From Bacteroidetes bacterium HGW-Bacteroidetes-10 (GTDB taxonomy: Bacteria > Bacteroidota > Bacteroidia > Bacteroidales > UBA932), in the NCBI GenBank assembly GCA_002842695.1, contig PHDT01000020.1, forward strand, positions 1-35,552: DNA of 35,552 nucleotides. The letters run 5' to 3'. A program made the position numbers and the translations under genes. This document shows, in pieces, positions 4,588 through 33,985 of the stretch; within the stretch, counting starts at the first letter, position 1; each line of letters starts with the position of its first letter. Below the pieces are notes generated by a model that was given only the letters and a program-made list of their open reading frames with translations, did no database searches and was not told where the DNA came from.

Positions 4588-4589
4588 GA

Positions 4590-5660: not shown

Positions 5661-5661
5661 C

Positions 5662-6438: not shown

Positions 6439-6448
6439 TTCTGTAAAA

Positions 6449-8532: not shown

Positions 8533-8542
8533 CCAAATAGTG

Positions 8543-10700: not shown

Positions 10701-10713
10701 CTTGGATGACATT

Positions 10714-11295: not shown

Positions 11296-11340
11296 CTTTT
11301 ATTTAAAACTTGGGAAAAATGTGGATACTAAAAAGTGATT

Positions 11341-11446: not shown

Positions 11447-11465
11447 TATTATTTTCATCGGGGGG

Positions 11466-11473
11466 CAAAGGTA
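11466..11473 (-). promoter_or_regulatory. Promoter -7 box of the arginine operon
   Basis: TACCTTTG on the minus strand matches TAnnTTTG fully. The expected TTTG element 19-21 bases upstream is not clear. Transcription would start near 11458, just before the structured leader. Confidence 0.55.
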
Positions 11474-11496
11474 AAAGAATAATTTTTATTTTTTCC

Positions 11497-11504
11497 TATC
11501 TTTG
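11497..11504 (+). promoter_or_regulatory. Promoter -7 box of the OPT-zupT-pepT run
   Basis: TATCTTTG matches TAnnTTTG; the upstream element is weak. It lies 21 bases before the ATG at 11526, which argues that the apparent in-frame extension of the transporter to a TTG at 11502 is not translated. The arginine promoter points the other way 23 bases to the left. Confidence 0.55.
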
Positions 11505-11525
11505 AAAAATAAACTAAAACTTATT

Positions 11526-15619: not shown

Positions 15620-15642
15620 TCAATAATTAAACATCTATAATT

Positions 15643-15957
15643 ATGTTACTTACAACAACTTCTACAATTGAAGGAAAAGTTATTGAACAGTATTACGGAA
15701 TGGTTTCCGGAGAGACAATCATTGGTGCAAACATTGTAAGGGACTTCCTTGCAGGTATCCGCGATATAGTTGGCGGTCGTTCAGGCTCATATGAGCAGGT
15801 ACTCAAAGAGGCAAAAGAGGAGGCAATCAGGGAGATTACTGCTCAGGCATCTGCTATGGGTGCAAATGCAATCATTGGAATTGACCTCGATTATGAAACC
15901 GTAGGCGGAACAATGCTTATGGTAACTGCTGCAGGAACAGCAGTAAGATACAGATAG
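15643..15957 (+). CDS. YbjQ family (UPF0145) protein
   Basis: This 104-residue soluble protein is a full-length member of the YbjQ/UPF0145 family, sometimes called putative heavy-metal-binding domain. Landmarks are the N-terminal [21 protein letters not shown], the [12 protein letters not shown] turn, and [17 protein letters not shown] near the C-terminus. Members form a pentamer-like dodecin-type fold; biochemical function is not established. It lies between peptidase T (23 bases) and the PLP enzyme (3 bases), so it is part of the same transcript. Confidence 0.9.
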
Positions 15958-15960
15958 AAA

Positions 15961-17121: not shown

Positions 17122-17171
17122 TAACTCCTCCCGAGTATTGTTTTACAAAGGAGGAATAAGAAAAGAAGGTT

Positions 17172-18506
17172 TTATCTGGCAGCTTTGCCGGTAAGCTCCC
17201 ACCCCATTATCGAAGAGATGTAGGGGATAAGATTCATCGCTATCTTTTTCTGACCATTGTAGTTGGGGTGTGCAGATGCTCCAAGGTCGCCGTCACCTCC
17301 GTATACGCCGTTCAAATAGGCTGCGAAATGGAGGTTTTTGTCTCCTTTCTCTTTGCAAAATGACTGCAGATAATCGAAGGCTGCTCCTTTTGGAGGCGCA
17401 ACACAAAGTACCGGAACATCTCCGTAAACCTCCCTTATCTGTGCAATTATTATTGAATATGCACCAAGAAACTCCTCCTTCTGAGGATGAGGTTTGGTTG
17501 AGAAGTCATTTGAGCCCAGATTGATTACTACCAGTGAGGGTTTATAGCTCTTAAAGTTCCATCTTTGTGCAGGATTCTCGTCAAAGGTCTGCATCATTCT
17601 CTCCTTCATTGAGTTTTTTGAGACTCTTGCAGTGTCTCCGTAATTCCTTGCTGCTCCTCTGCCGGAGTGGGCTATGAAGGTATAGTCTGTGTTAAAATAT
17701 CTTGAGATAATTGCACCATATGCAAGGTTGCAGTTTTCTGTCTGTGCTTTGAAAGGCTCGCTTTTGCTTTTAGCCTCTGTGCCGTAACCTGCAGTAATGG
17801 AATCTCCAATAAACTCTATAAGTCCGTTTCTGCCGGGTTCAAACTTTATCAGCTTACCACCTTTGGCCAGTTCGAAAGAGTGAATTGTAGTGGTTCCCTG
17901 CTCACCTTCACTTCTCTTCTGGAGTCTGAGGGTATGCTCTCTTTTGTCAGGTGCACCTGCAAGTACAATAAGTGAATCTTTGCCAAAAGTTTCAATTGTT
18001 CCGGCCGGGAAGCCATCAATGAACACATTGTAATAGTTCTTTTTTGTGTCCGAAACCCGCATGGCAATGTAGCCGCCGGTAAATGTAACCTCAAGGTAGG
18101 TTCCGCTCCAGTCAAATGAAACAGAGCCGTCTGAGGCTGCAAGGGTTCTACCGGTATATCTGATGTTTGCATCGTTTGCAGGAAGGGAAATATATGAGGT
18201 CATCTTTTTCATCTTTCGTACTCTTGATGCAGAGATTCTCTCCTCTATAAGATTATCCTCTTCAAAATCTCTGAATGCTCTGTTGAATCTCTCCACTGCT
18301 CTGTTATGCTCCTCAAGAGCACTTCTGTGGTTATCCATTGCAGATTCATGTGCGCTTTTGTGGATTTCCATAGCCTGCGTGTGGGCCTGTGAGCTTGCAC
18401 TGGCATGTGCCTGAGCGTGGGCATCTGCTGTCTGGGCCTTCACGGGAAGGGTGATAATTGAAATAGCTGCAAATGCAACCAGGACTTTTCTTACAGAAAA
18501 TTTCAT
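17172..18506 (-). CDS. Secreted CE2-like SGNH esterase with His-rich N-terminal helix
   Basis: This 444-residue exported protein begins with a signal peptide (1-24, ending VKAQ). Next is an Ala/His-rich helical stretch (about 26-85), then a jelly-roll-like beta domain (about 105-215), then an SGNH hydrolase domain. The hydrolase shows FIGDSITAGYG with nucleophile Ser236, GSND (331-334) and GASAHPNYNGQ with catalytic His413. The order beta domain then SGNH domain is that of carbohydrate esterase family 2, which deacetylates sugars. It is the last gene of the locus, 34 bases after the large fusion gene, and would remove acyl groups from the glycan or its fragments. The His-rich helix is not part of standard CE2 enzymes. 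The convergent MalY-type gene ends 50 bases away. Confidence 0.82.
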   Translation of the reverse strand: MKFSVRKVLVAFAAISIITLPVKAQTADAHAQAHASASSQAHTQAMEIHKSAHESAMDNHRSALEEHNRAVERFNRAFRDFEEDNLIEERISASRVRKMKKMTSYISLPANDANIRYTGRTLAASDGSVSFDWSGTYLEVTFTGGYIAMRVSDTKKNYYNVFIDGFPAGTIETFGKDSLIVLAGAPDKREHTLRLQKRSEGEQGTTTIHSFELAKGGKLIKFEPGRNGLIEFIGDSITAGYGTEAKSKSEPFKAQTENCNLAYGAIISRYFNTDYTFIAHSGRGAARNYGDTARVSKNSMKERMMQTFDENPAQRWNFKSYKPSLVVINLGSNDFSTKPHPQKEEFLGAYSIIIAQIREVYGDVPVLCVAPPKGAAFDYLQSFCKEKGDKNLHFAAYLNGVYGGDGDLGASAHPNYNGQKKIAMNLIPYISSIMGWELTGKAAR

Positions 18507-18540
18507 AAATGTTTGTTTAAAATTTGGTGTAAATGATTGT

Positions 18541-21500
18541 TTATTTCGCAGTGTTCAGGTTTCCTTTAAGGTCTACATCAAATATAGCGAAAGGATTTAA
18601 CAAAACATCAACAGTTACGGCACATTCCAGACGATTTAGTTCTTTTTTGAGAGAGTATTCTCCGAGTCCCCATGACTTCCATCCTGAGGCAAGTGACTTC
18701 TCAATTTCTGCTCTCTCTTTTCCTGAAATTTTTGCAATCATAGCTGCAAGATTTTCCGGGGTAACTTTACCATCAGCTACTCCTGAAAAGTCTGCATGAG
18801 TATAAACCTCTTTAAGACCGGCTGCCAGCTCTGCAACTGTCATAAGTGAATCTGCTTTAAACCAGGTCTGGTTCTCCCACCCCTTGTTTGCACCAATTCC
18901 CTTAATAATACCTGTTACGCCTATTCTCTGGATTGCCTTAAAGTTTTTATGATCTGCAGGGAGGTCCAGATAAGGGAGAAGGTATCCGCCTTTACTCAGA
19001 AGTGACTCCTGAACCTCTCTAACCTTAACGGCAGATGTGGCTGTCTCTCTTTTTACTGCCAGCGCCGCAATTGTGCCGGCTGCCTCTCCTATTTGCAGAA
19101 CAACAGGCTGAAGTCTGGTTGTTCCGTTTACCAGATTGGTTACGGAAATTGACTTCTCTGCCACAATCAGGTTGTCTGTTCCTTCAGGGATAAGTGTTCC
19201 CATAGGGAGCCCGTAAGATGGAACCGGATAGAAATAGAGATCCGGAAGGTTTTCCCATCCCGAGTATCTTGTGTGGTGGTGGTCTACTGGGTAGTCCCCA
19301 ACCGCAATGGCTGTTCTGTAAAGCTTTTCTGCCTGTTTGTAGGGTTCTTTGATATGGTTAAGGCCGAATGTTACAGCTCCCTTTATTCTTCTGGATTCGC
19401 GGTGATAAGGGATAAATGGAAACTTATCTTCCGTTGGAAATTCATCATCTGCAAGGGCAAGGTTTTTAAAGCCGAGCTCTGTCTGCAGATAATAGAGGAA
19501 AGAGAGTGAGTGATTCTTTGCCTTTTTTAGCTCCTCCTGCCTTTGGGCCGGTGTGAGTTCGAGAAGGTTCAGATAAAAATCGTTGCCCTCAATAGGCCAG
19601 TTAATCATGTATTTATTATTGGGAAGCTTACCATAGGTAATCATCATCTGCGGACTCCAGAGTCTGTTCTTCTCCTTTGGATTTGTGCACTTTTTGCTGA
19701 TAGTTGAACAGTAGAAAAGTGTTGGATTGTATCCTGCCGGTTTGGCAATTGTCATAACCTTTCCATAATCCTTTAGCACCATTACGTATGTAAGGTCCTG
19801 AATGATATCATTCTCCTGCTCCGGGGCGATATACTCTCCTGTTATATGTTTTGAATCCATTCCAATTGAATATGGAACGCCTGCCATCTTTGCAACATCG
19901 CCCATTTCAGTTGCATCTATTACAACTGCTGCAGTAATATCTGAAGCAGAGCCATCCCGGGAAACCTTTAGTCTCCATCCGCTGCCGCTCTTCTCAAGTG
20001 AACTGAGTGTGCTCCTGTACCAAACAGAGAGCTTGCTCTGTCTGGCAGCCATGTTTTTAAAGATTCGGTCTCCAACCTTTGGCTCAAATAGGGTACTGCT
20101 CACCCATCCGGTCTTGAGTGCTGCTGCCCCGCCGTAATGTCTCTCGAGGGAGTCTCTGAACTCTGCCCAGAAGCCGCCCCTTAATTTATAGTTTCCGTCA
20201 GTTGCACTTACACCGGCAGAGGTAAGCATTCCGCCCAGCCACTCAAACTCCTCAACAATGAGGGTGCGTGCACCAAGTGAGGCAGATCTTATTCCGGCAG
20301 AAGTTCCGCTTGCTCCTCCGCCAATTATTACAACATCGTAATGGCTGCGGCTCCTCAGTTTCTGAGAATACTTTTTGCCAAAGCTGTCATATGCGATAAC
20401 TTCAATGTTAGAGCCTGAAGAGAGAGGTTTTGCCCTGAAAAAGTGAGAGGCAACAGATGGATAAATCCATTTGTGTTCGAGTTTATCTTTATTAGAATAG
20501 AGCTCTCTGGCAGCAGGATCGTAAGCATCAAAACGCTCCATTTTTGAAGTGAGCCTTCCATCTTCCCATAGCTCAACTCTCCAGTTTGCGTCGCTGTTCC
20601 AGATATTGGCCACAATGTTCTCACCAAAGGATTTGTCATCCTCGCCGGTGTAGAGTCTCATCTGGTATGACTCATCTTTGCCCGTGGCCTTGTATTTCCA
20701 GTTTAGTTTACCTCCCTCTGCAGTAAAGATTGCATAACCCCTTGGGGTTCCGTCTGTGCAGAGCTCTCCCTGCCACCATGCTCCCGAGAGGGCAGCAATG
20801 TTGTGTTCATAGAGGTTGGGGGCAATAATGTGGTTTGCCATTGTATGCGTGTGGCCTGAGATTATGTGAGCGTTGTATGGCTTAAGAATGTTGTACAGAG
20901 CCTTGTGATTTGAGACGCTGTTTCCAGCCCTTGCATAGCTGAACTGTTTTCTGTCCTGCTCTCCCTCTGTTGTTGGGATATGCAAGGCAACAACCACTGT
21001 AGTTCCCTCCTTCACATAGGAGAGATCCTTTTTGAGCCACTCAAGCTGCTGACCATCTAAATATCCAATATAGAAGTAGTCTCTGCCAATGTAGAAATTG
21101 TCATTGAGAACCACATAGTGAATATCTCCTGCATTGAATGAGTAGTATGAGGGTCCGAAGATATCTTCATATCTGCCGCGAGTGGTCTCATTTGACGGAC
21201 CGTAAACAACCATATCATGGTTACCCATTGTGTTGAAAAACGGGATGCCGGTTTTGGACATAACATTTACATACTCCGGGTAGAGATTGTGATCGTGAGA
21301 AATAAGGTCGCCGCAAGCTATTCCATGAAACGGCATATCGTATTTACTCACTGCCTCCCTTATATCTGCCGCTGCTTCTGATAGAACAGGAAACTCCTTT
21401 GCTGCATAAATCTGAGGGTCTGCGATAACTACAAAACCATGTTTTTTGTCATCAGAGGCTTTTTGCTCCAGGGCAAAGTCATAACTCTTTTTCTCTTTCT

Positions 21501-21771
21501 GTTTAGGCTGATAGAATTTTACAACGCCCGCCTCAAGAGGAGAGTTGTATCCTGCCGGAGAGGAGATGTAAATGAATTTTGCATCATCTTCACTCTCGAG
21601 AAGATACTTACCGTTAGTACCCGAAACGGCAAAGTTCTCGCCGTCTGTAACCACTACCCCTGCAACAGGCTTTCCGCCTGCGGTTATTCTTCCCTTAATG
21701 CTCTCTGCTAAAAGAGAGTTGCCCGCCGACATTGTGAGGGTCAGGAGCAACAATACAAAAACTCTTTTCAT
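18541..21771 (-). CDS. Exported fusion: calcineurin-like phosphoesterase + FAD-dependent oxidoreductase
   Basis: This 1076-residue protein joins two enzymes normally found apart. Residues 1-22 are a signal peptide. About 24-102 is an Ig-like N-terminal domain typical of Bacteroidetes metallophosphoesterases. About 110-360 is the calcineurin-like domain with ADPQ (Asp118), GD (154-155), GNHD (183-186), His264 and GHTH (306-309). About 360-470 is its C-terminal domain. A five-residue linker leads into an FAD_oxidored-type domain (PF12831-like) beginning YDVVIIGGGASGTSAG with the dinucleotide motif at 484-489, then WLGGMLTSAG and DATEMGD. The last 110 residues resemble an S-layer-homology-like helical segment. 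No stop or frameshift lies at the junction. It sits between the epimerase and the CE2-like esterase. It should act in the periplasm; phosphate ester removal and sugar oxidation are family-based guesses. Confidence 0.87.
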   Translation of the reverse strand: MKRVFVLLLLTLTMSAGNSLLAESIKGRITAGGKPVAGVVVTDGENFAVSGTNGKYLLESEDDAKFIYISSPAGYNSPLEAGVVKFYQPKQKEKKSYDFALEQKASDDKKHGFVVIADPQIYAAKEFPVLSEAAADIREAVSKYDMPFHGIACGDLISHDHNLYPEYVNVMSKTGIPFFNTMGNHDMVVYGPSNETTRGRYEDIFGPSYYSFNAGDIHYVVLNDNFYIGRDYFYIGYLDGQQLEWLKKDLSYVKEGTTVVVALHIPTTEGEQDRKQFSYARAGNSVSNHKALYNILKPYNAHIISGHTHTMANHIIAPNLYEHNIAALSGAWWQGELCTDGTPRGYAIFTAEGGKLNWKYKATGKDESYQMRLYTGEDDKSFGENIVANIWNSDANWRVELWEDGRLTSKMERFDAYDPAARELYSNKDKLEHKWIYPSVASHFFRAKPLSSGSNIEVIAYDSFGKKYSQKLRSRSHYDVVIIGGGASGTSAGIRSASLGARTLIVEEFEWLGGMLTSAGVSATDGNYKLRGGFWAEFRDSLERHYGGAAALKTGWVSSTLFEPKVGDRIFKNMAARQSKLSVWYRSTLSSLEKSGSGWRLKVSRDGSASDITAAVVIDATEMGDVAKMAGVPYSIGMDSKHITGEYIAPEQENDIIQDLTYVMVLKDYGKVMTIAKPAGYNPTLFYCSTISKKCTNPKEKNRLWSPQMMITYGKLPNNKYMINWPIEGNDFYLNLLELTPAQRQEELKKAKNHSLSFLYYLQTELGFKNLALADDEFPTEDKFPFIPYHRESRRIKGAVTFGLNHIKEPYKQAEKLYRTAIAVGDYPVDHHHTRYSGWENLPDLYFYPVPSYGLPMGTLIPEGTDNLIVAEKSISVTNLVNGTTRLQPVVLQIGEAAGTIAALAVKRETATSAVKVREVQESLLSKGGYLLPYLDLPADHKNFKAIQRIGVTGIIKGIGANKGWENQTWFKADSLMTVAELAAGLKEVYTHADFSGVADGKVTPENLAAMIAKISGKERAEIEKSLASGWKSWGLGEYSLKKELNRLECAVTVDVLLNPFAIFDVDLKGNLNTAK

Positions 21772-21784
21772 CTGATAATCTCTG

Positions 21785-22945
21785 TTATAATGTTTCGAGA
21801 ATTTTCCAGCTCTGGTACAATCCCCTTGGGATATGGAAGCAGCCCTTCCACTTTCCTCCCTTCAGGTCAAGCAGTACCTCGCCCTGCCTGTTGAGGTATC
21901 CGAACCACTCCGGATTCTCTTCATCTTTAAAGTGAGTCCAGGTATAGTCGTGGAGCTTTTCAAACCAACTCAGAGCCTCTTTTGAGCCTGTAAGCTGATA
22001 TGCCTTGAGCATGGTAATAATGGTCTCAATGTGAACCCACCAAAGCTTCTGGTCCCACTCAAGCTGCTGAGTTGGGTGTCCCTTTATATCCATGAAGTAG
22101 AAAATCCCCTCGTGTTTGGTATCCCAGCCATATTCAATGGTTCTGAGTGCAATCTGAGTTGCCTTCTCAATAATGTCAGGCCTGTTGAGTTTAACACCAA
22201 GATCCATGATAAACCACATCGCCTCGAGCGAGTGTCCCGGATTAAGAACTCTCCCTTCGTATGAGTCTGAAAATTCACCCTCAGGAGTGACATTTTCAAG
22301 AATCAGACCCAGCTCATCATTATAAAAAACATTCATAACCTCATTGAGGCATGTCTCTATAGTCTGGTCTATGAGCTCCCTGTCAATAAGATGTTCAATC
22401 TCCAGAGCAAGGTTGCATAGAATCATGGGAAGGGAAAAACCCTTAAGGTCTCTGGTTCCCGGATATGCCTTGTTCCACTGACCCTTTGGATTACTCTGCT
22501 TTTCAATAATCTTGTTAAAGGTCTCCTTTGCAATCCTGCCATACTCCTCGTTACCGGTAGCCAGGCTCAGCTGGGCAAACGCCATTGTGGCAAAGGTATA
22601 TGAGAAAATATTGTAGGGCTGAACAAGCGGTTTACCTTCCCTTGTAAGAGAGAAGTACCAGTTAAGGTTTCCGTCATGCCCGTATTTGCGGAGAAACTCT
22701 GCTCCCTGAATTGCACAGTCAAGCCACTCCTGCCTCTTTTCAACTTTATTGTACATCATTGAAAAAAGCCACACCTGGCGACCCTGAAGCCAGATGAACT
22801 TATCTGTATCATAAACATCTCCCCTTCTGTCCAGACAGGTGTAGTATCCGCCAAACTCCATGTCCTGGGATTTATCCAGCCAGAAAGGCAGGATATTGTT
22901 AAATAGTTCGTCCCGGTACTGATTGGCAAGTTTCTGAAAATCCAT
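21785..22945 (-). CDS. N-acylglucosamine 2-epimerase (renin-binding protein type)
   Basis: This 386-residue protein has no signal peptide and belongs to the AGE superfamily, (alpha/alpha)6 barrels that epimerise sugars at C2. It matches the renin-binding protein/AGE branch rather than cellobiose epimerases: NPGHSLEAMWF (235-245, His238) and KGCFHIPR (367-374, His371) correspond to the two catalytic histidines, and GRQVW holds Arg56. His305 in WWVHIET is also conserved. The expected reaction is GlcNAc to ManNAc. This step is used in amino-sugar or sialic acid breakdown, so the locus may deliver an N-acetylated sugar to the cytoplasm. It lies 13 bases before the fusion gene. Mannose-type isomerase activity remains possible. 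Confidence 0.88.
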   Translation of the reverse strand: MDFQKLANQYRDELFNNILPFWLDKSQDMEFGGYYTCLDRRGDVYDTDKFIWLQGRQVWLFSMMYNKVEKRQEWLDCAIQGAEFLRKYGHDGNLNWYFSLTREGKPLVQPYNIFSYTFATMAFAQLSLATGNEEYGRIAKETFNKIIEKQSNPKGQWNKAYPGTRDLKGFSLPMILCNLALEIEHLIDRELIDQTIETCLNEVMNVFYNDELGLILENVTPEGEFSDSYEGRVLNPGHSLEAMWFIMDLGVKLNRPDIIEKATQIALRTIEYGWDTKHEGIFYFMDIKGHPTQQLEWDQKLWWVHIETIITMLKAYQLTGSKEALSWFEKLHDYTWTHFKDEENPEWFGYLNRQGEVLLDLKGGKWKGCFHIPRGLYQSWKILETL

Positions 22946-22961
22946 ATATGTTTAAAATCTT

Positions 22962-23903
22962 TTATTCACAATTTTTCAAATATTCCATATATCTGTTGTA
23001 CAGGTGACCTGCCTGCAGATATGCAGATTGCGGACTCATGAAATGGGAGAATTCGAAGGTGATTGCATTGCTGTATCCTGCCTTCTCTGCCAGCCTGAGC
23101 TTTAGCAGTAGTTTTTCCCATTTTATTGGCAGAAATTTGATAGGCATGTCCCTGTCAAATGTCTCTGAGTTTGTCCAGCACTCAAGACCATATTTGTCTG
23201 CCAGTTTCTTGTTAACTGTAAGAAAACTTACAAGTTCGTCGTATTGTACGTGTCCGTCCTGAAAGGCAACAATATCAACTGCACCTCTTATTCCGGCAAA
23301 TATTTCGTCCCACTCCTTTTCATGTTCAGTAAGCGATACTGCCTCCTCTTTCTGTGTAGCAGATGTATACTGGCTAATATTCTTTGACCCGTCAATGTAT
23401 GGCGAAATCATTGTTGGCAGTCCTCCGGAAACCTCTTTGCAGTATCTGCCGAGGCTGGCGTAGAGGTCCACAATCTTGCCTGTCTTTCTGCTGCACTCCT
23501 GAGAGATGTACCATCCGCCAAAAGAGGCAAAATGGCCATATTTTTTCCACACTTCATCAATCACCTCTTTATTGAGTTCGACCTCTGCAGCATAGTCTCC
23601 CCTGTCCCAGTACTTTCCTGAATCGTAAAGACCAAAGAAGAACTTCATACCCCATTTATCGCTCAAGCGAAGAAACATATCTACCAGATCAACCGGAGGT
23701 GTATAGCAACCCTCCCTTCTGGTGAGAACTTCCGATGGAAATGTCTGCCACCTGCGATAACCGCTTCTTATCAGAATTACGGTATCTATGCCTGCGGCCT
23801 TCATATATCCAAAGTCCTTGTCCCATTCTGCCTCACCCCAGTTCTGGTGAGGAATATCATGACTGATTTCGTCCAGAAATGTTCCTTTAAATTTCATAGT
23901 CAT
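22962..23903 (-). CDS. DUF4434-like cytoplasmic TIM-barrel protein
   Basis: This 313-residue protein resembles the DUF4434 family, thought to be a glycoside-hydrolase-like TIM barrel. The opening FKGTFLDEISHDIPHQNWG is characteristic, with the following DTVILIRSGYR, MKFFFGLYDSGKYW, FGGWYISQE and FQDGH resembling successive barrel strands carrying acidic residues. Unlike its neighbours it has no signal peptide, so it should work in the cytoplasm on imported sugars. Its start overlaps the stop of the upstream esterase by one base; Met1 and Met3 are both possible starts. No reaction is established for the family, and hydrolase activity is inferred from fold only. Confidence 0.75.
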   Translation of the reverse strand: MTMKFKGTFLDEISHDIPHQNWGEAEWDKDFGYMKAAGIDTVILIRSGYRRWQTFPSEVLTRREGCYTPPVDLVDMFLRLSDKWGMKFFFGLYDSGKYWDRGDYAAEVELNKEVIDEVWKKYGHFASFGGWYISQECSRKTGKIVDLYASLGRYCKEVSGGLPTMISPYIDGSKNISQYTSATQKEEAVSLTEHEKEWDEIFAGIRGAVDIVAFQDGHVQYDELVSFLTVNKKLADKYGLECWTNSETFDRDMPIKFLPIKWEKLLLKLRLAEKAGYSNAITFEFSHFMSPQSAYLQAGHLYNRYMEYLKNCE

Positions 23904-24592
23904 TATTTTTTCAGCACATTTTTTAACAGATAGTCTGCCCAGATAAGGTATCCCTCAGGCTCCAGATGCAGGCCGTCCCTTGAAAGCTGAGCCTTAAGGA
24001 TGCCCTCACTGTCTGAAAGAAGCTTTCCAATTTCGAGGAAAGTAACGCCCTTCTCGTTGCACAACTTCTGATATTTTGCATTTAGAGATGCCACGGCAGG
24101 ATTTTTCCCTTTGGCCCCCGGGAAGGCAAGTTTTGCTTCATTAACCGGCAGAACACTCTGGATAAAAATCCGGCAATCCTTAGAAGATGCCTGAATTTTA
24201 TCAATCATTACAGCCATATTATGAGCTATAGTGTCTTCGCTCCAGCCGTTTGCCAGGTCGTTGATTCCCGCCATGATAAAGATTACGGAAGGGTCCAGCT
24301 TAAGGATGTTGTCAAGTCTGTCAATCATTCCAAAAGTGTTGTCCCCGCCAATTCCTCTGTTTACTACTCTGTCGTTTCTGAGAATTATTTTCCACCATCC
24401 CTGCTCTGTAATACTGTTGCCGAGAAACACGACAGGTTTAGCCGGCACCGTTTCAGATTCATGCGCAGCTCTTCTTATGTCGTAGTATGTTCCCCTGAAG
24501 TTATATTGCTTCTGAGGCTGGCCCGCGAGACGCGGGCTGCCTGCAAAAGCGAGGATTAGGGTTAGTATGGTAAAAATGAATACTCTTTTCAT
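23903..24592 (-). CDS. Exported SGNH/GDSL-family esterase
   Basis: This 229-residue protein has a signal peptide (about 1-24) and a complete single SGNH hydrolase domain. Block I reads VVFLGNSITEQGWW with nucleophile Ser60 (GNS in place of GDS, as in many platelet-activating-factor acetylhydrolase-like members). Block II is RGIGGDN, block III MAGINDL (Asn111) and block V RDGLHL with Asp206 and His209. It is likely a periplasmic deacetylase for sugar O-acyl groups; sialate O-acetylesterases of Bacteroidetes have this architecture. It lies 6 bases after the GHL10-like lipoprotein gene and overlaps the DUF4434-like gene by one base. Confidence 0.87.
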   Translation of the reverse strand: MKRVFIFTILTLILAFAGSPRLAGQPQKQYNFRGTYYDIRRAAHESETVPAKPVVFLGNSITEQGWWKIILRNDRVVNRGIGGDNTFGMIDRLDNILKLDPSVIFIMAGINDLANGWSEDTIAHNMAVMIDKIQASSKDCRIFIQSVLPVNEAKLAFPGAKGKNPAVASLNAKYQKLCNEKGVTFLEIGKLLSDSEGILKAQLSRDGLHLEPEGYLIWADYLLKNVLKK

Positions 24593-24598
24593 TTCTTA

Positions 24599-25972
24599 TT
24601 ATTTTTTCGCGTTGGCAGCGTCAATGCCATTTTTCACAAACTGCCACTGGTTGTTTGCCTTAAGGTGTATCATGTCAAAGAAGAAGTATCCGTCTCCGGC
24701 ATTGATACAGGCATCAACAGAGTTTGCAATTGCAACTCCCACATCTGTTCCTGAGGGAACCTGGTTTGGGTAAAAGAAGTTTCCATCAGGACCGCCGGCT
24801 ATTTTCACATCATTCATGGTAACATCCTTGGCCTTGCTGGTGAATCCCTGCATAGTCCATTCTGAAGATCCGTAAACTTTGTTTGCGGCAGCATAGGCTC
24901 CTATGAGCATAAACTCCATATGGTCTGCATATCCGAAGTTCTGGTAGTTTGTACTGGCCCAGCTGTATTTTGACGAAGTGTTGTACTTAGGACTAGCCCA
25001 GTTTACCCCAACATCATAATACGAAGAGTACCATCCGCCCACATAAACTCCAAATTTCACATTTGGGTTAACAGCCTTCACTCTTGCCTTTGCCTTTACC
25101 ATGAAGTCATGAATAACCTTTACGCGGAACTCAAGCCACTTTTTAAAGTGCACAGGCAGCGGACTTGGCAGCTTGCCAACCTCTGTTCCCGGAGGGATTA
25201 TATCTCCCGGGAAGTTAGTCACAGACTGACCCAGCCATGATTCAAACTTTGCTTTTGTATATGGAGAGAAATCGCTTTCAAAACTGTCAAATCTTCCTCT
25301 GTCAAGAACAATTCCATCCAGATTCTGATAGGCTGCCAGATCTTCAAGTATCTGACAAATGTACTCCTGAACCTCATCCCTTACCGGATTGAAGAACTTT
25401 GCATTTTTATCTGCCTGCATAATATTCTTGATTCCGCCAGGCAGGTTAAGATCTGTTGTCCAGCCCTTTTTGACGTCATCCCTGAATACAACTCCCTGTG
25501 AACCCAGGCTGGTGGTATTTCCGCCTACAAAAGTATTGATGGCGGCATACACCTTCAATCCAAGTTTATGTCCTTCGTCAATGAAGGCCTGAAGGTAGTC
25601 CCATGTGGCTGTCCGTTCAATTTTTGTGTAGCCCGCAGAGGTCCATGCTCCCAGAAACTGAACCTGACCAACAACATCTGTGCTGAACAGTACATCTCCG
25701 GTTGTTGGCCTTACGTCAACAACAATATGGGTAAAACCTGCATTTTTGGCTATAGTCAGGTCTCTTGTAATATTCTCTTTGCTGTTTGCAAAATCGGGAA
25801 AATTGGCGGCTGCATCTACCCAGATATATTTTGGTTTATCTGAATTGCTAACTGTTTCGTCTTCCCACTCCCACTCCGGCGGAGTGTATGGTTTGCTGCA
25901 TGCAGAGAGGACATTAATGAGCACTGCAGGAAGTATCAGCAGTGACAGGAGTGATAAAAATCTTTTCTTCAC
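24599..25972 (-). CDS. GHL10-like TIM-barrel lipoprotein
   Basis: This 457-residue protein has a lipobox LSAC (Cys25), so it should be an outer-membrane lipoprotein. The body is an alpha-amylase-like TIM barrel of the GHL10 kind: YIWVDAAANFPD (49-60), GFTHIVVDVRPTTGDVLF (79-96), GHKLGLKVYAAINTFVGG (134-151), FFNPVRDEV and LDGIVLDRGRFDSF (218-231). Asp224 of LDR is the best candidate for a catalytic acid by analogy with amylase-type barrels. It is a clear paralogue of the first gene of this locus (32640-33935). An Ala/Ser-containing acidic linker (26-46) separates the lipid anchor from the barrel. Substrate and activity are unknown. A strong hairpin lies directly upstream in the transcript. 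Confidence 0.8.
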   Translation of the reverse strand: MKKRFLSLLSLLILPAVLINVLSACSKPYTPPEWEWEDETVSNSDKPKYIWVDAAANFPDFANSKENITRDLTIAKNAGFTHIVVDVRPTTGDVLFSTDVVGQVQFLGAWTSAGYTKIERTATWDYLQAFIDEGHKLGLKVYAAINTFVGGNTTSLGSQGVVFRDDVKKGWTTDLNLPGGIKNIMQADKNAKFFNPVRDEVQEYICQILEDLAAYQNLDGIVLDRGRFDSFESDFSPYTKAKFESWLGQSVTNFPGDIIPPGTEVGKLPSPLPVHFKKWLEFRVKVIHDFMVKAKARVKAVNPNVKFGVYVGGWYSSYYDVGVNWASPKYNTSSKYSWASTNYQNFGYADHMEFMLIGAYAAANKVYGSSEWTMQGFTSKAKDVTMNDVKIAGGPDGNFFYPNQVPSGTDVGVAIANSVDACINAGDGYFFFDMIHLKANNQWQFVKNGIDAANAKK

Positions 25973-26051: not shown

Positions 26052-27719
26052 TTATTTATCAATACAATCAAATTCCCACGCTACAAGTGAACGGGCATTG
26101 CCGTCTGTATAGTAGAGTCTGAGTTTATAACCATCAGGTGACGGTACAAGTATAAGGTCACTGGAAGCAGTTACAGGAGTGCCGTACTTACGTTCGTTTG
26201 TTGTGAACACCCTTGATGGAGAGTCATCCAGCTTACCGGTAAACTGACCAAGTGAGGTTATGTCAAACATGTATCCAAGACACTGGCTGTATGTAAAGTG
26301 CATACCACCGTAAACCGCAACATATTTTGCCTTGTTGAATTCAACAGCATCTGCTGCATTGAAGTTCGAGTTTGCACCCCAGGTTGATGTAGCAAGGTAG
26401 CTGATTCCTGCGTTGGTCGTGCCATTTACAGCAGTAAGTCTGTTGCCGCTGTAGCTGGTTACAAAGAAGTTCTCATTTTTGTTTACAGTACTGTATACAA
26501 CATCTACGTTTGCACCATTCCACATTGAAATGTTGGTAATCTTGATTGCCTCAGGTGCTCCAACAACTCCGTCTGTGATGACCCATCTGATGAACTCACT
26601 GTGGTTTGCAGGACTTGCCCATGCCCATGTAGGAACTGTGATGATAGCATCGTCATTAACGTCACCCTGAACAGAAATCTTTGCTCCCATCTTGGCACCA
26701 GTACCAATATTGTAAGTAAAGGTAATAAATTCTTCAGGTGCTTTGGTTACAGAATTGGTTTTCCAGATTTTGAACACTGCATTCTTCGCAGCAACATTAC
26801 ATAACAGCATATTCCCAGCCTTGTCTGAAGTGATTGCTCCGCCGCTAAGTGCCATTGAACCTTCAATAAGACCAATCTTCTCACCGGTTGTACCATTGAA
26901 GTAAGTCTGGTCGAGACCTGTGCTCAGGATTACATAGTTACCAAGAGCTGCAAGGGTAAAGTTTTTGCCTGATGCATTAGTGATTCCGTATGCAACATTG
27001 AAATCTTTTGCCCAAAGTTCAACCTGACTGCCAGTGCGGAAACCGTAGTTGATTTTTGCCGGAATTGTCTTCTGAACTGTATATGTAGCTTTTGTTACAC
27101 CATCATGTGCAGTAACTGTAAAGGTTACCGGCTGAGAGTAATCTCTTGGAACAGATGGATCAGGTGTTATAGTTGCATGAGCAGATACCTGAATGGCAGC
27201 TGCAGATGTTCCCAGCTCGTCAATTGTTATAAGTGAGATTGTTTTGGCATCCTTGTCAATAACACCGTTTAGTGATGGATTTGCAAGGCTGAAGTTTAGA
27301 ATCTCACACTTATTACTCTTTCTTCTTTCGCCGGTTATGTAGTACTTTTTGGTTGTACCATCGGCATTACGAAATGTAACATAGTTTTTCTTGGTAAGGT
27401 CCATTATAGAGAGACCCGGCTCAATGAAACAGTTGTCGTCAAGGTTTGCAGACATTCTCATTGAGGTGATATCTGTCTCATTTGTACTCTCCTCAGGATA
27501 GTACCACGGAACTGCCACCATTATCTCTTCACTGGAAGGATCTGTGATCTGAGCAGTGAATTTTGCATTTTGGTCGAGTTTATACTCTCCTGCAGCAAAA
27601 GATGCAGTAATACTGTTAATCCCCTGTCTTACTTCTGAAGGAACAAGTTCCTGGGGTTTGTGACATCCGCCCAGAATTCCGAGCAGAGCTGCAATATAAA
27701 TTATATTTATCTTCTTCAT
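26052..27719 (-). CDS. DUF5018-like surface lipoprotein (SusE/F position)
   Basis: This 555-residue protein starts at MKKINI; seven further codons upstream overlap the susD stop and precede the signal sequence, so they are left out. A lipobox LGGC (Cys19) makes it a lipoprotein. Residues about 35-125 look Ig-like. About 128-215 (ILNFSLANPSLNGVIDKDAKTISL to a TYTVQK end) resembles DUF5018. The remainder is beta-rich, with repeated GN and LxVxx strands suggesting a beta-propeller-like or solenoid domain. Directly after susD, this is the usual place for a glycan-binding lipoprotein, which is the likely role. No catalytic motif is seen. Confidence 0.72.
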   Translation of the reverse strand: MKKINIIYIAALLGILGGCHKPQELVPSEVRQGINSITASFAAGEYKLDQNAKFTAQITDPSSEEIMVAVPWYYPEESTNETDITSMRMSANLDDNCFIEPGLSIMDLTKKNYVTFRNADGTTKKYYITGERRKSNKCEILNFSLANPSLNGVIDKDAKTISLITIDELGTSAAAIQVSAHATITPDPSVPRDYSQPVTFTVTAHDGVTKATYTVQKTIPAKINYGFRTGSQVELWAKDFNVAYGITNASGKNFTLAALGNYVILSTGLDQTYFNGTTGEKIGLIEGSMALSGGAITSDKAGNMLLCNVAAKNAVFKIWKTNSVTKAPEEFITFTYNIGTGAKMGAKISVQGDVNDDAIITVPTWAWASPANHSEFIRWVITDGVVGAPEAIKITNISMWNGANVDVVYSTVNKNENFFVTSYSGNRLTAVNGTTNAGISYLATSTWGANSNFNAADAVEFNKAKYVAVYGGMHFTYSQCLGYMFDITSLGQFTGKLDDSPSRVFTTNERKYGTPVTASSDLILVPSPDGYKLRLYYTDGNARSLVAWEFDCIDK

Positions 27720-27730
27720 GGTTATTTCAG

Positions 27731-29404
27731 TTATCTCCATTCCGGATATTGTTGTACTGCAGTGTTATTCATAAGTTCCGACTCAGGAAGCGGAATACGG
27801 TACATCTTCTCTGGGAAGCTTCTGTCCTGTTTGTCGCAATCTACATAAGAGTAGGTAAGAACTGCGCCCTCTTTAATAATCTTTAGTCCGTGCACTCTGC
27901 TGCCCGGTCCGTTGTAGTTTATGTGTGCAAGTCTCCAGCGACGCATGTCCCAGTAAAGGTGACCTTCGTAAGCCAGTTCTACTTTGCGCTCATTGCGGAT
28001 AGCTGCCATAAGATCTGCACCGCCTTTATCCTGATATGGAAGACCAACCCTGTCGCGGACTTTCCTTACATCTGCATTTGCAGTCGCAGGATCGTTGAGC
28101 ATAAAGGCTGCCTCTGCCCTGTTCAGGTAAACTTCGGCCATCCTTATTGCAACCCATGTCTGGGTGCTTGGCTGTGAAGCAAGATCTGTATGGTTTTCAT
28201 CCACCAGTTTCTTCATATAGTAGCTGGTAGTTGTTCTGCCTTCAGGATTCGGGTCATCCTTAAATGATATCCATCCGTCTTTTCCACCAACATAAGACTC
28301 AATCTGACGACCTTTCCATGTAGCTCCGTTGTAAAGGATAGATGCGTGGAAACGAATTTCAAGCTGAGAGTAAGGAGGCGTAGCTGTGGTACCTGTAGCT
28401 GAATGCCATGCAGACCAGTCCGGATATCCGCCTGTTGCAAGCTCATAAGCTTCTACCATCTCCTGTGTTGGAACAGCTCTTCCGCCCACACCTGCGTAGT
28501 CTCCGCCCGGAGTGAACAGTTTGTCAAATCCGTGGCTTGGGCCGCTTACTGCATAGTTGAATTCCAGAACTGACTCTTTGTTACCTGTTGAATAAGATTT
28601 GAAGAGGTTTCTGTATTGTGTTACAGTTGTTGTTTTTGGAAGATCATAGATTCCGAGATTAATTACAGAATCTGCAGCATCTTTTGCAACCTGCCATTTC
28701 TTTGCGTAAAGCATCGCTCTTGATTGCATCGCAAAGGCAGCACCTTTTGTCACGCGACCGAAGCTTGATGCAATCCAGCTTTTTGGAAGATTTTTAGCAG
28801 CATAGTTAAGATCCTCTTCAACCATTGACCAGCCCTCTGCCTCTGTGCTCAGGGCTTTAGTTTTGCTTATAGAGAGCAGATCTTCGTCATAAAGGATGAC
28901 ATCTCCGCTTCTCTTGATAAGCTGAAAATAGAGGAATCCCCTGAAGAAACGAGCCTCTGCCCTGAATCTGGTTTTGGTCGCTTCGTCCAGCGCTGTGCCG
29001 TACTTCTCAAGACCGTAAAGGAATTCATTAACTCGTCTGATACGGGTATAGAGGTTATCCCACATTCCAAGGTGGAAAGAGGCGGTTGGTGCAGTAATTC
29101 CGCCATTTGCATAGGCAACGATGTTTGCGAAACCAACATGAGTTCCCGGTGTCATCGAACCGTATTTTAATGTCTCTGTAAGACCCTCAGTGAGTCCTAC
29201 CTGTGATTCTCCGTCGCCAAACGGACTGTAGATTGAGATGTACGGATAGAATCCGTTTACATAAAGCTCTACAGACTCTTTGCTTTTCCAGACAGTTTTG
29301 TCTGAAAGCTTATCGGTTGGTGTCATGTCCAGGAACTTGTTACAGCCCGGAAGAACAAACACGCCAATGAGTATTGCTATTATTGTTATTCTAGTTTTCA
29401 TCAT
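27731..29404 (-). CDS. susD: SusD/RagB family outer-membrane lipoprotein
   Basis: SusD-like lipoproteins form the lid of a SusC transporter and bind the glycan at the cell surface. The 557-residue protein has the lipobox LPGC (Cys21) followed by NKFLDMTPTDKLSD, a standard SusD start. Next come the TPR-like regions (RAEARFFRGFLYFQLIKRSGDV) and the RagB/SusD C-terminal domain with NERKVELAYEGHLYWDMRRW and EKMYRIPLPESEL. It begins 9 bases after the susC stop. Met1 or Met2 may be the start. The ligand cannot be read from sequence. Confidence 0.96.
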   Translation of the reverse strand: MMKTRITIIAILIGVFVLPGCNKFLDMTPTDKLSDKTVWKSKESVELYVNGFYPYISIYSPFGDGESQVGLTEGLTETLKYGSMTPGTHVGFANIVAYANGGITAPTASFHLGMWDNLYTRIRRVNEFLYGLEKYGTALDEATKTRFRAEARFFRGFLYFQLIKRSGDVILYDEDLLSISKTKALSTEAEGWSMVEEDLNYAAKNLPKSWIASSFGRVTKGAAFAMQSRAMLYAKKWQVAKDAADSVINLGIYDLPKTTTVTQYRNLFKSYSTGNKESVLEFNYAVSGPSHGFDKLFTPGGDYAGVGGRAVPTQEMVEAYELATGGYPDWSAWHSATGTTATPPYSQLEIRFHASILYNGATWKGRQIESYVGGKDGWISFKDDPNPEGRTTTSYYMKKLVDENHTDLASQPSTQTWVAIRMAEVYLNRAEAAFMLNDPATANADVRKVRDRVGLPYQDKGGADLMAAIRNERKVELAYEGHLYWDMRRWRLAHINYNGPGSRVHGLKIIKEGAVLTYSYVDCDKQDRSFPEKMYRIPLPESELMNNTAVQQYPEWR

Positions 29405-29413
29405 AACCCGTTT

Positions 29414-32400
29414 TTAAAAAGAAATTGTCAATCCACCCATGAATGTCCTTTGTTGCGGGTAGTATCCGTTGGTAACACCCGGTCTCTCAGGGTCAATGCC
29501 CTCAGGTAGTCCGCTCAAGGTAAAGAGATTAGTTCCCTCTACATAAATTCTCAGATTGCTGCAGTTGAACTTGTTGATCCATCTTGCCGGAAGTGTGTAT
29601 CCAATTTGCGCAGACTTAAGTCTCACATATTTTCCGTCACGGAACCAGAAAGAAGATGCATAAGCGTTATTTGTATTAGGAGGCTCAACCGAAAGTCTCG
29701 GGAAAGTACCAACTGTATTATCCGGTCTCCATGCATTCTCAACAAGATAAACAGGAGCGTTTGCACCCGCTTTGAACAATTTTGTATAGATAGTATTATC
29801 ATCTACATAGTTGTAATATGTACCTGTAAGAGAAACATCATTGAGTGCACCTGCCACAAACAGAGCAGACATATCAAATCCTCTCCAGTTTGCATACAGG
29901 TCGAGACCTGCAGTAAGCTGAGGCATATTCGAACGGCCGATAATTGCGCGGTCCTGAGCATAGCTAATCACACCGTCACCATTAAGGTCCTTGTATTTGA
30001 TATCACCGGGACGTGGTCTTGCACCTGCAATATATGGTGAGTTATCAATTTCCTCTTCGCTCTGGAACAGACCTATTGCAACCAGACCTGCCTTTGCAGA
30101 TGTAGATTTTCCGGTCCATTTTGCGTAGTCAGGAGTGTTGGGGCTGTCCTGATACTTGAGATATCTGTTTGTTGCCCAGCTGAGGTTAAGTTTTGCACCG
30201 TAGAAGAAATCTCCAATGCGGTTTTCGTGGTTGAGCATAAGGTCAAAACCTCTTCCGTCCACACTGTTATTATTTACATAAGTTGTGTAGTATCCACCCA
30301 TTGAACCTGGCATTGCTCCCTGTGAACCAAGGATGTCCCATGTGTATGAATAGAATACGTCAAATTCAACACCAAGAAGGCCTTTCCACATAGTTGCATC
30401 AAAACCAAAGTTGTAAGAGATCATTCTCTCCCATGTAAGGAAAGGATTAGCAACAGCTGTGGTCATAAGAGCATTCTGCTGCTGACCTCCAAAGATTACC
30501 TGAGGAGAAGGACTGCCAATAAAGCTCATTGTGCTAAGGAAAGCATAAGGGCTTACAGGGTCTGAACCAACAACTCCCACTGAACCTCTTATCTTAAGGT
30601 TATCAACGAAAGTCACGGAGTTTTTGAAGAAATCTTCATTTGAAATTCTCCAGCCTGCAGAGAGAGAAGGGAAAAGACCCCATCTCTTGCCGGGTATATT
30701 TCCTGCAAACTTATATGAACCATCATATCTGGCTGCAAGTTCTGCAAGGTATCTGTTGTCATAGTCATATTTCACACGGCCTACGATACCTACACTTCTG
30801 TTTGCATCGCTTGAACCTGAAATTGGATCGTCAGAAGGAATTCTGGCCATTCCCAGTTCTGGAAGTTCTTCAAAGTAGAAGCCTTTACCATAAGCAGCAA
30901 ATTTATTGCTCTTGTAATCGCGTGTCTCCATGAGAACCAGAGCGTCTACACTGTGCTTGCCAAATACATTAGTATAGCTGGCACTTGTCTGAGTTACCAT
31001 TCTGCCCCACTGAGTAAATCCCTCGCCAAGGGTTCTGTCTGTCTGATTCCTTGCGTCTGTCCTCTTTGTAAAGGCAATGTTTGTAGTTGTACTGTTTGGA
31101 ACTGTTTCGAACATCAGGTCGTAAGGAGTGCTGAAGTTCTTTGCATATGTAAAGGTATGGTCATAAGCTCCTGTAAATTTCAGGTTTAGACCTTTAACCC
31201 ATGGAATATCCCATCTTAATGCAATGTTTGACTGAAGAGAAGTAGAAAGAGTCTTGTTCTTTCCTGAAAGGTTAGCTGCAGCAACCGGGTTAATCGGGTT
31301 ACCGTAAGCGTTACGGCTTGCTACAGGAATACCGTCAATCTCCATAGGGAGGTAAGGGTGTGCATAAGCTACCTGCTCACTTACTGAGAGCCACGGAGCA
31401 GATGAAACACCTGCAGCAGATGAACCACCCGCGCTGTAACCTGCAGATCTGGTATCGCCTACCGAACCGGCAACACCCAGTGTAAGGGTCAAGCTTTTAG
31501 CAATTTTAGCTTCAATATTACTTCTGAGGTTGTATCTTTTGTAAGTGAAATTCTTGATATTTCCAAGCTGGTCCATATAGCCAAGGGATGCAAAATACTT
31601 GATTTTGTCAGTTCCGCCGTTGGCTGTAATGCTGTGCTGCTGAGTCATACCTACACCGTAGGTCTCTTTTGCCCAGTCTGTATTACCCCATCCGTCAGTC
31701 GGATCATTATTAAGCATAAGGGCAACCTGCTCTTCGGTGAAGACTATGCCTCTTCCGTCAAGCTCATTTGCCTTGTTATACCAGTATGCATAAGATGGTC
31801 CATCAAGGAACTTGGGGAAGTTTGCATTAACAGAAGCTCCTACTGACGTTTTGTAAGAGATCTTGGACTCTTCTGTTCTGCCCTTTTTGGTTGTAATGAT
31901 AATCACACCACCGGCGCTCTGCAGTCCGTAAACTGCAGCAGATGATGCATCCTTAAGAACCGAAACCGATTCAATGTCATTAGGGTTAATGTCATTAATT
32001 GAACGAGGCATTCCGTCTACGATGTAGTTAACACCTGCTCTTGAACCCCTGATTCTCAGACCTGCGAAGTCTGCGCCCGGCTGACCGGACTCCTGTACAG
32101 ATGAGAGACCCGCAACGCGTCCTCCCAAAATACTTGAGATGTTGGTTGAAGGAGTCTTCAAAAGCTCTGAACCTTTGATCTGGGAAACAGATCCTGTAAG
32201 GCTCGCCCTTTGCTGTGCACCATATCCAACTACAACAATCTCATCAAGAGCAGAGACATTGTCTTTCATAACTACATCAAGCACTGCCTGGCCTGTGTAC
32301 TTCAACTCCTGAGTCTCCATTCCCAGGAACGAAATCTCCAGAATGTCGCCCTTAACGGCTTCCACTCTGTACTCGCCCTTTAAATCGCTCAAGGAGTACT

Positions 32401-32581
32401 TTTTGGTGTTTTTAACAACAACGGCGGCACCTGTAACAGGTTCGCCCTTTGTGTCGGTAATTTTCCCTCTCACGCTGGTCTGGGCATACCCGTCGTATGT
32501 GCAGAGAGCGAAAACGAGCAATGTGAGCATAAATGCCCGCATTGTCCGGAGATTCCTGAAAATCAGATGAACTTTTTCCAT
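29414..32581 (-). CDS. susC: SusC/RagA family TonB-dependent transporter
   Basis: This 1055-residue outer-membrane barrel imports oligosaccharides using TonB energy. After a signal sequence (cleaved near AYAQ-type site, residue 34) comes a carboxypeptidase-D-like domain (about 36-105). A TonB-box/plug start DEIVVVGYGAQQRASLTGS (113-131) follows, with plug motifs IRGSRAGVNYIVDGMPRSI and SVLKDASSAAVYG, then a long beta barrel ending GGLTISF with the C-terminal aromatic. It pairs with the SusD protein 9 bases downstream. No N-terminal signalling (STN) domain is present, so an ECF sigma/anti-sigma pair is not its expected regulator. Confidence 0.97.
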   Translation of the reverse strand: MEKVHLIFRNLRTMRAFMLTLLVFALCTYDGYAQTSVRGKITDTKGEPVTGAAVVVKNTKKYSLSDLKGEYRVEAVKGDILEISFLGMETQELKYTGQAVLDVVMKDNVSALDEIVVVGYGAQQRASLTGSVSQIKGSELLKTPSTNISSILGGRVAGLSSVQESGQPGADFAGLRIRGSRAGVNYIVDGMPRSINDINPNDIESVSVLKDASSAAVYGLQSAGGVIIITTKKGRTEESKISYKTSVGASVNANFPKFLDGPSYAYWYNKANELDGRGIVFTEEQVALMLNNDPTDGWGNTDWAKETYGVGMTQQHSITANGGTDKIKYFASLGYMDQLGNIKNFTYKRYNLRSNIEAKIAKSLTLTLGVAGSVGDTRSAGYSAGGSSAAGVSSAPWLSVSEQVAYAHPYLPMEIDGIPVASRNAYGNPINPVAAANLSGKNKTLSTSLQSNIALRWDIPWVKGLNLKFTGAYDHTFTYAKNFSTPYDLMFETVPNSTTTNIAFTKRTDARNQTDRTLGEGFTQWGRMVTQTSASYTNVFGKHSVDALVLMETRDYKSNKFAAYGKGFYFEELPELGMARIPSDDPISGSSDANRSVGIVGRVKYDYDNRYLAELAARYDGSYKFAGNIPGKRWGLFPSLSAGWRISNEDFFKNSVTFVDNLKIRGSVGVVGSDPVSPYAFLSTMSFIGSPSPQVIFGGQQQNALMTTAVANPFLTWERMISYNFGFDATMWKGLLGVEFDVFYSYTWDILGSQGAMPGSMGGYYTTYVNNNSVDGRGFDLMLNHENRIGDFFYGAKLNLSWATNRYLKYQDSPNTPDYAKWTGKSTSAKAGLVAIGLFQSEEEIDNSPYIAGARPRPGDIKYKDLNGDGVISYAQDRAIIGRSNMPQLTAGLDLYANWRGFDMSALFVAGALNDVSLTGTYYNYVDDNTIYTKLFKAGANAPVYLVENAWRPDNTVGTFPRLSVEPPNTNNAYASSFWFRDGKYVRLKSAQIGYTLPARWINKFNCSNLRIYVEGTNLFTLSGLPEGIDPERPGVTNGYYPQQRTFMGGLTISF

Positions 32582-33935: not shown

Positions 33936-33958
33936 AGTATTTAATGCATATTTCATCA

Positions 33959-33985
33959 CAAACATAATAAATATTTTAATTCAAA
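33959..33985 (-). promoter_or_regulatory. Candidate promoter of the susCD locus
   Basis: TATGTTTG on the minus strand (33959-33966) matches TAnnTTTG. A TTTG lies at 33982-33985, but the spacer is 15 bases instead of 19-21, so the call is tentative. A start near 33952 would give a leader of about 17 bases and supports translation from 33935 rather than from upstream codons. Confidence 0.4.

Follow-up and report, generated by a model that had tools for sequence, protein, structure and literature searches.

Why should a phosphoesterase and a flavin-dependent oxidoreductase be made as one protein, and do the two act on the same substrate? The question is raised by one open reading frame (ORF) in a 35,552-nucleotide contig of Bacteroidetes bacterium HGW-Bacteroidetes-10 (PHDT01000020.1, hereafter the window), in which a calcineurin-like phosphoesterase (MPE) runs on in frame into an FAD-dependent oxidoreductase (FAD, where genes and loci are counted). 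The window spans an entire contig (G000:C35; G and L numbers are our labels for genomes and loci) of a draft genome of 2.41 Mb that is 93.5% complete. We find that the fusion is genuine and evolutionarily conserved, and that it lies in a Sus-type polysaccharide utilisation locus. We consider it rather probable that the protein is a bifunctional periplasmic enzyme of this locus, with both halves acting on an imported amino-sugar oligosaccharide. The families are known and the parts are ordinary; the arrangement is a new architecture.

A phosphoesterase and a flavoprotein domain in one frame

The frame starts with an ATG at 21771 on the minus strand and its stop codon ends at 18541, Table 1. In the MPE half Pfam finds MetallophosN (residues 27-101, E 8.5e-22), Metallophos (PF00149, 114-310, E 2.2e-9) and MetallophosC (322-468, E 9.3e-44). 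The scores of PF00149, PF16371 and PF16370 are 38.5, 77.6 and 149.9 bits, above their gathering cut-offs of 21.5, 35.6 and 29.7. FAD_oxidored follows at 479-924 (E 1.1e-91, 308.7 bits) and is matched over the whole profile, 1-416 of 416, opening with the dinucleotide-binding glycine motif GGGASG. Further on in the FAD half, D830, H832 and H833 are conserved. In the fused homologues 0-8 residues separate the halves, as judged from BLAST ends that depend on the query cuts at 472 and 475. The claim of the sequence-only reading that a three-part MPE and a complete FAD protein share one frame behind a signal peptide is therefore borne out. By eye, no lipobox cysteine is seen in the signal-peptide-like start. 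For the C-terminal domain Pfam gives no match at E 1, and an initial guess of S-layer-homology repeats was dropped for that reason.

The metal motifs of the MPE half are D118-P-Q120, G154-D155, G183-N-H-D186, H264 and G306-H-T-H309. The ligand motifs GD, GNHD, H and GHxH, most of which had been recognised from the sequence alone, are kept in 28 out of 28 aligned MPE homologues. The canonical first motif of calcineurin-like phosphoesterases is D-x-H, a form from which the fusion ORF departs. The suggestion that DPQ has a tuning role specific to this metal site is not supported, as D-x-Q is found in 42 of the 42 phosphoesterases compared, 12 fused and 30 unfused, and is thus the normal motif of the subfamily and not a trait of the fusion.

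Otherwise the two families are mostly separate exported proteins, as had been supposed. The unfused Bacteroidota phosphoesterases with MetallophosN, Metallophos and MetallophosC have all the metal motifs, including the D-x-Q first motif, but no FAD domain. The unfused secreted PF12831 proteins of Bacteroidota have the full domain and the same C-terminal domain, with 45-60% identity to the FAD half of the window, but their ORFs are ~600-710 aa long and carry a signal of their own, which is absent in the fusion. A strict lipobox pattern is present in 31 of 90 FAD ORFs without MPE, a set with uncurated starts that includes duplicates and gene fragments and in which looser lipobox-like starts were left uncounted. 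Export of the flavoprotein by the twin-arginine (Tat) route was considered, since the genome has TatC, and rejected: only one of these 90 ORFs shows a twin-arginine-like pattern.

Judged from sequence and family, the fusion protein would be exported, its MPE half would hydrolyse phosphoesters and its FAD half would bind FAD and carry out redox chemistry. The AlphaFold2 model of the whole protein has a pLDDT (predicted local distance difference test) of 91.6 and a pTM (predicted template modelling score) of 0.66; for the FAD half alone the values are 96.0 and 0.95. The top Foldseek match of the whole model is Rv0805 (PDB 2hyp), a class III cyclic nucleotide phosphodiesterase. Rv0805 shares the fold of the catalytic domain, with a template modelling (TM) score of 0.76 by target length, but the identity is 15%, its chain is much shorter (230 residues) and its substrate is not transferable.

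Table 1. Features of the fusion ORF and of the surrounding locus in the window.
Feature	Position	Strand	Basis
MPE-FAD fusion ORF, calcineurin-like phosphoesterase + FAD-dependent oxidoreductase, 1076 aa	18541..21771	-	ORF and Pfam; orthologous fusions
Probable Sec signal peptide, residues 1-22	21706..21771	-	By eye: hydrophobic stretch ending LLA
Phosphoesterase half, residues 23-472, MetallophosN/Metallophos/MetallophosC	20356..21705	-	Pfam; metal motifs
FAD oxidoreductase domain PF12831, residues 475-930	18982..20349	-	Pfam, homologues
C-terminal domain, residues 931-1076 (146 residues), also in unfused FAD proteins	18541..18981	-	Homologues; modelled mostly at high pLDDT
CE2-type SGNH carbohydrate esterase, signal-peptide-like start	17172..18506	-	Pfam; homologue in frame with MPE-FAD in G002
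N-acyl-D-glucosamine 2-epimerase (AGE), signal peptide not seen	21785..22945	-	Pfam; over NCBIfam cut-off
DUF4434 protein, related to PDB 4h41 'putative alpha-L-fucosidase'	22962..23903	-	Pfam, PDB
SGNH/GDSL hydrolase	23903..24592	-	Pfam
GHL10-DUF4985 putative glycoside hydrolase a, lipoprotein-like start	24599..25972	-	Pfam
DUF5018 protein, possibly surface glycan binding	26052..27740	-	Pfam
SusD homologue	27731..29404	-	Pfam, NCBIfam
SusC/RagA TonB-dependent transporter	29414..32581	-	Pfam, NCBIfam
GHL10-DUF4985 putative glycoside hydrolase b, first operon gene	32640..33965	-	Pfam
SSF family sodium:solute symporter, divergent, cut by contig end	34112..35551	+	ORF, Pfam

Conservation and distribution of the fusion

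According to the sequence-only reading, a stop codon or a frameshift near residue 476 could expose the fusion as an error. None is present: the junction is open, with both halves in one frame, in 12 of the 60 genomes searched (our own, G002, G005, G006, G007, G008, G009, G015, G016, G017, G018 and G035). G009 corresponds to the complete genome of Bacteroidales bacterium CF (CP006772.1); the frames of G006 and G007 leave the contig past the junction.

The second doubt, that the architecture might be common and already characterised, was addressed by wider searches. Among the 25 listed genomes of the genus, 11 including our own carry the fusion, while in the other 14 nothing matches at E 1e-100. 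In a survey of 299 genomes of the family no MPE-FAD fusion was found beyond the 12 named above; for each genome the two best candidates were scored, and the FAD matches opened were those whose frame was long enough for both halves. With two candidates scored per genome, the FAD half is matched at E 1e-120 in 14 of 393 Bacteroidales genomes and is fused in two, our own and G009. A contig search returned 155 relatives of the FAD half; of the best 80, five are fused (L042-L046, duplicates from contigs of G005, G008, G009, G015 and G035) and 75 have no MPE in the FAD frame, including L059 and L121, both starting at a contig end, and the split L080. In L080, from a Tannerellaceae metagenome-assembled genome, the FAD gene (9932-11823, +) appears as two overlapping ORFs, possibly by a frameshift. 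In the genomes searched the fusion is thus confined to one genus and one genome of another genus in the same family, and hence it is not common; among the matches listed from open-licence PubMed Central (PMC) papers, no description of it was found. A further candidate, G129 of genus g4 (G129:C23, identical to L139), with a reported open frame of 1572 aa, was rejected because two in-frame stops separate its MPE from its FAD. When window 15000-25000 was compared with plasmids by Megablast, no match resulted.

The ratio of nonsynonymous to synonymous change (dN/dS) is low in both halves: 0.042 (MPE) and 0.051 (FAD) for G002/G018, and 0.066 and 0.080 for G015/G016. In these two close, unsaturated pairs the C-terminal domain is higher, 0.109 and 0.223. 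The other three pairs are saturated at synonymous sites, apart from a single FAD value, 0.061 at dS 3.1. G002 and G018 are 97.6% identical across 7.4 kb and are therefore hardly independent.

Origin of the fusion

We built a quick tree of FAD domains with 104 rows, omitting rows below 250 bits or 300 columns, by which the G006 fusion was lost, and the duplicates L042-L046. The 11 fused rows form one clade with a support of 93 (Shimodaira-Hasegawa-like approximate likelihood ratio test, SH-aLRT). A split arrangement is found in two loci of Rikenellaceae, L047 (Rikenellaceae SIG171) and L055 (Alistipes RGIG8565), where AGE, MPE, FAD and CE2 follow each other as separate genes. There the MPE stop is followed by 3 or 7 bases and by a FAD gene with a lipoprotein-type signal, whereas at the fusion junction stop, spacer and FAD signal are all absent. 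A single origin from adjacent, co-directional genes is probable, in which the MPE stop codon, the intergenic stretch and the signal peptide of the flavoprotein would have been lost. With that signal gone, both domains would share one Sec signal.

The glycan-utilisation locus

The window holds a SusC-SusD pair with co-directional degradative genes, i.e. a Sus-type polysaccharide utilisation locus. From GHL10b through CE2 all genes are co-directional with gaps of -10 to 79 bp, so that GHL10, DUF4434, MPE-FAD and CE2 share one tight operon with SusC, SusD, DUF5018, SGNH and AGE. AGE scores 708.8 bits against an NCBIfam cut-off of 600.

The CE2 protein has ~80 N-terminal residues (roughly 25-105) before CE2_N that are rich in Ala/His/Glu/Arg and look coiled-coil-like by eye. 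No signal peptide is seen by eye in the DUF4434 protein of the window, while the DUF4434 proteins of L160-L162 have Tat-like RRDFLKK/RRxFLK starts; the compartment of DUF4434 may accordingly differ between lineages. Away from the locus, the genes at window 3289-11295 (-) resemble an operon for arginine biosynthesis; Pfam identifies a lyase, a member of the M20 peptidase family and an amino acid kinase, and further genes were judged by eye.

To describe the locus in relatives, we searched 115 loci with profiles made from proteins of the window and of the loci; 111 of the 115 contain FAD. After removal of the repeats L144, L145 and L160, and of L040, the second piece of the L035 gene, 107 distinct FAD loci covering 1.90 Mb remained. 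AGE, DUF4434 and GHL10 are each present in 56 of these, SusD in 54, SusC in 53, ROK in 44, DUF5018 in 43, DUF5009 in 27, MFS in 25, SGNH in 22 and CE2 in 20; MPE is present in 27 (12 fused, 15 separate), NAGPA in 16, SSF in 15, GH97 in 3, GDPD in 2 and NAGLU in 1. The counts are lower bounds, many stretches being short or one-sided, and SusC, SusD, ROK and MFS are broad families. For comparison, 99 whole Bacteroidales genomes, mostly of 2-5 Mb each, hold 24 MetallophosC and 21 NAGPA places, and at these rates chance would place clearly fewer than one of each in 1.90 Mb. The comparison is no formal test, as the loci are related, the two samples differ in taxonomy and in the profiles used, and the fusions themselves account for 12 of the 27 MPEs.

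In Bacteroides ihuae the order is ROK-FAD-DUF4434-MFS-AGE-GHL10-SusC-SusD, with two MPEs within ~24 kb. Based on this genome and on gene names, the window locus probably corresponds to the host-glycan region BT0433-BT0461 of Bacteroides thetaiotaomicron. BT0434, BT0435 and BT0437 would be the FAD, DUF4434 and AGE genes, and PDB 4h41 is presumably BT_0435. The region shares ROK, GH89, family 10 glycosylhydrolase, phosphoesterase and SusD/TonB genes with loci of this kind; it differs in that the MPE lies several genes away from the presumed FAD gene. In published work, BT0433 is a ROK-type regulator assigned to sialic acid and N-acetylglucosamine (GlcNAc) (PMC3878776), BT0438 a GH89 alpha-N-acetylglucosaminidase (PMC8225759), and BT_0439 is linked to host glycans (PMC5238430). 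BT0446-49 are listed as a DUF5009 protein and, after it, a calcineurin-like phosphoesterase between two family 10 glycosylhydrolases, and BT0451-54 as SusD, a TonB receptor and MFS (PMC10434189); BT0451-BT0461 is termed an N-glycan polysaccharide utilisation locus (PMC7531118).

Other fusions among the same enzymes

MPE-FAD is not the only fusion in loci of this kind. In G002 (L029) the frame runs on into the CE2 esterase, giving an MPE-FAD-CE2 protein of 1422 aa whose frame is still open where the contig ends. In G018, a near relative of G002, a stop and a signal peptide stand where G002 reads into CE2, so the longer fusion looks like a deletion and not like a single miscalled base. FAD is fused to GHL10-DUF4985 in L123, L141 and L142 (L141 and L142 by Pfam, L123 by blastp only) and to DUF4434 in L139 and L140. 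These fusions resemble MPE-FAD in joining the same flavoprotein family in frame to an enzyme of the same locus kind, but the partner is another one, on the C-terminal side, and they form separate clades in the tree, with an SH-aLRT of 99 each. In another Bacteroidales family, Pfam identifies an MPE-CE2 fusion of at most 843 aa, its start being uncertain (L163:8958-11489, +); an unfused FAD gene lies one gene (AGE) away from it. In all, five combinations occur within one conserved locus kind: MPE-FAD, MPE-FAD-CE2, MPE-CE2, FAD-GHL10 and FAD-DUF4434. Such varied fusions of the same enzymes suggest that they work together. The functional link between the two halves, proposed from the window alone, is thereby backed by gene order, by the shared locus and by further fusions.

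Two other ORFs, L149:4641-8114 (+) and L155:3183-6692 (-), join a MetallophosN/C phosphoesterase to an (alpha/alpha)6-type hydrolase domain (rhamnosidase/MGH1-like) in ~1160 aa. Other candidates were rejected. Long frames in G281, G304, G319 and G148, taken for FAD-CE2 fusions, are actually FAD-DUF4434 or FAD-GHL10. The ~345 aa upstream extension of a divergent FAD protein (L143:7831-10323, +) is probably only an over-long ORF, because a lipoprotein-like start with its own methionine stands directly before the FAD domain.

Proposed function and alternatives

The AGE epimerase in the locus argues for an N-acylated hexosamine as substrate. Together with the ROK regulators, the phosphodiester glycosidase NAGPA and GH89 in related loci it indicates phosphorylated glycans of the GlcNAc type, and most likely the glycan is of this type, acylated and phosphorylated. 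In the pathway that we propose, the oligosaccharide would be bound and imported by the DUF5018, SusD and SusC proteins and trimmed by the GHL10 hydrolases and the esterases. The MPE half would then dephosphorylate it and the FAD half would oxidise a sugar hydroxyl, with the order of the steps, and the direction and site of the flavin reaction, as we presume them. The released amino sugar could be taken up by the SSF symporter and epimerised in the cytoplasm by AGE.

Several observations weigh against this proposal. The placement of the two halves relative to each other in the model is uncertain, as the pTM for the whole protein shows. Foldseek pairs the FAD half with generic FAD folds throughout its 50 best matches, none of which reaches a TM of 0.5. 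A search of PDB sequences gave 20 matches at E <=0.01, the best 0.00019, and those to the FAD half span little beyond the dinucleotide-binding start. The FAD half thus has no close solved relative among the matches, and it is the gene neighbourhood that points to sugar oxidation. The clade of fused proteins comes from a quick tree and its support stays below the 95 mark. The FADs of L047 and L055 are not sister to this clade but lie near FAD-GHL10 rows; the two loci are therefore a model of how the fusion could arise, not its direct ancestor. For 80 of the 107 FAD loci there is no MPE in the stretch covered, often short or one-sided, and an MPE is consequently not obligatory for FAD. Finally, NAGPA and GH89 are absent from the window, NAGPA also from the fused loci, and the genome has one of each elsewhere.

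The 80 loci without MPE would also fit another explanation, in which the halves share just a signal peptide and an expression level and attack unrelated bonds of the same polymer. The junction agrees with mere co-export as well, since it lacks the signal that the FAD protein has in the split relatives. That these enzymes are joined in five different ways speaks for more than a single accident, yet co-export would give this result too. We regard this explanation as possible but doubtful.

A sharper version of the proposed pathway has NAGPA-type enzymes remove GlcNAc from GlcNAc-1-phosphodiester caps. The MPE half would take the leftover phosphomonoester, and the FAD half would oxidise the freed sugar or the next residue, letting GHL10 cut. 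In several of the 16 FAD loci with NAGPA, its gene adjoins FAD or MPE; Pfam was given 10 of the 16 and matched all 10, and L162 matched too. GH89 lies beside MPE in L154, L155 and L159 (L159 by Pfam, the others by profile), in stretches without FAD, and one FAD locus, L152, holds GH89. The frequency of AGE and the assignment of the BT0433 regulator to sialic acid and GlcNAc (PMC3878776) point the same way. However, NAGPA is missing from the window locus and the fused loci, and the single NAGPA of the genome has no other genes of this locus in its stretch and a low score against the locus-type profile. Moreover, NAGPA and MPE need not act serially, and both occur with FAD only in L140, L142, L161 and L162. 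This version is accordingly tentative and, on balance, not likely.

The flavin could also act without net oxidation, for instance if a glycosidic unit were oxidised only transiently, so as to make its elimination or epimerisation possible. The 20 window ORFs scanned include no recognised electron-acceptor partner, and FAD is fused to two hydrolase-like families, GHL10 and DUF4434; both points would suit a redox-neutral step. Ordinary monooxygenases, halogenases, reductases and dehydrogenases nevertheless make up most of the 50 best fold matches, and we think a redox-neutral role unlikely.

A classical NanA-type sialic acid locus is very improbable. AGE is present, the SusD is weakly NanU-like (40.9 bits against a cut-off of 425) and BT0433 is named NanR in the literature, but the genome, at its 93.5% completeness, has no DHDPS/NanA (PF00701) match, whereas 14 of 14 control genomes are positive, and no sialidase was found among the 20 window ORFs scanned. 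An assembly artefact or a missed stop, conceivable in a draft contig, can be practically dismissed given the 12 fused genomes, one of them complete.

The proposed bifunctional enzyme can also be placed in a broader and more speculative picture, which we judge improbable as it stands: an undescribed periplasmic redox route of Bacteroidota, in which a flavoprotein variously joined to a phosphoesterase, an esterase and two hydrolase-like enzymes would dismantle a phosphodiester-decorated amino-sugar glycan by oxidation-assisted cleavage.

Significance

The MPE-FAD couplet noticed in the window is one link in a wider pattern of fusions in a conserved glycan locus of Bacteroidota. The flavoprotein family occurs in many Bacteroidota lineages, and about half of its loci contain SusC and SusD (53 and 54 of 107). 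The fusions suggest which of the uncharacterised proteins of the pathway act together and, being single polypeptides open to expression and assay, they allow a direct test of what the substrate is. A further suggestion from the fusions is that Bacteroidota regularly use flavin redox chemistry when they break down glycans in the cell envelope.

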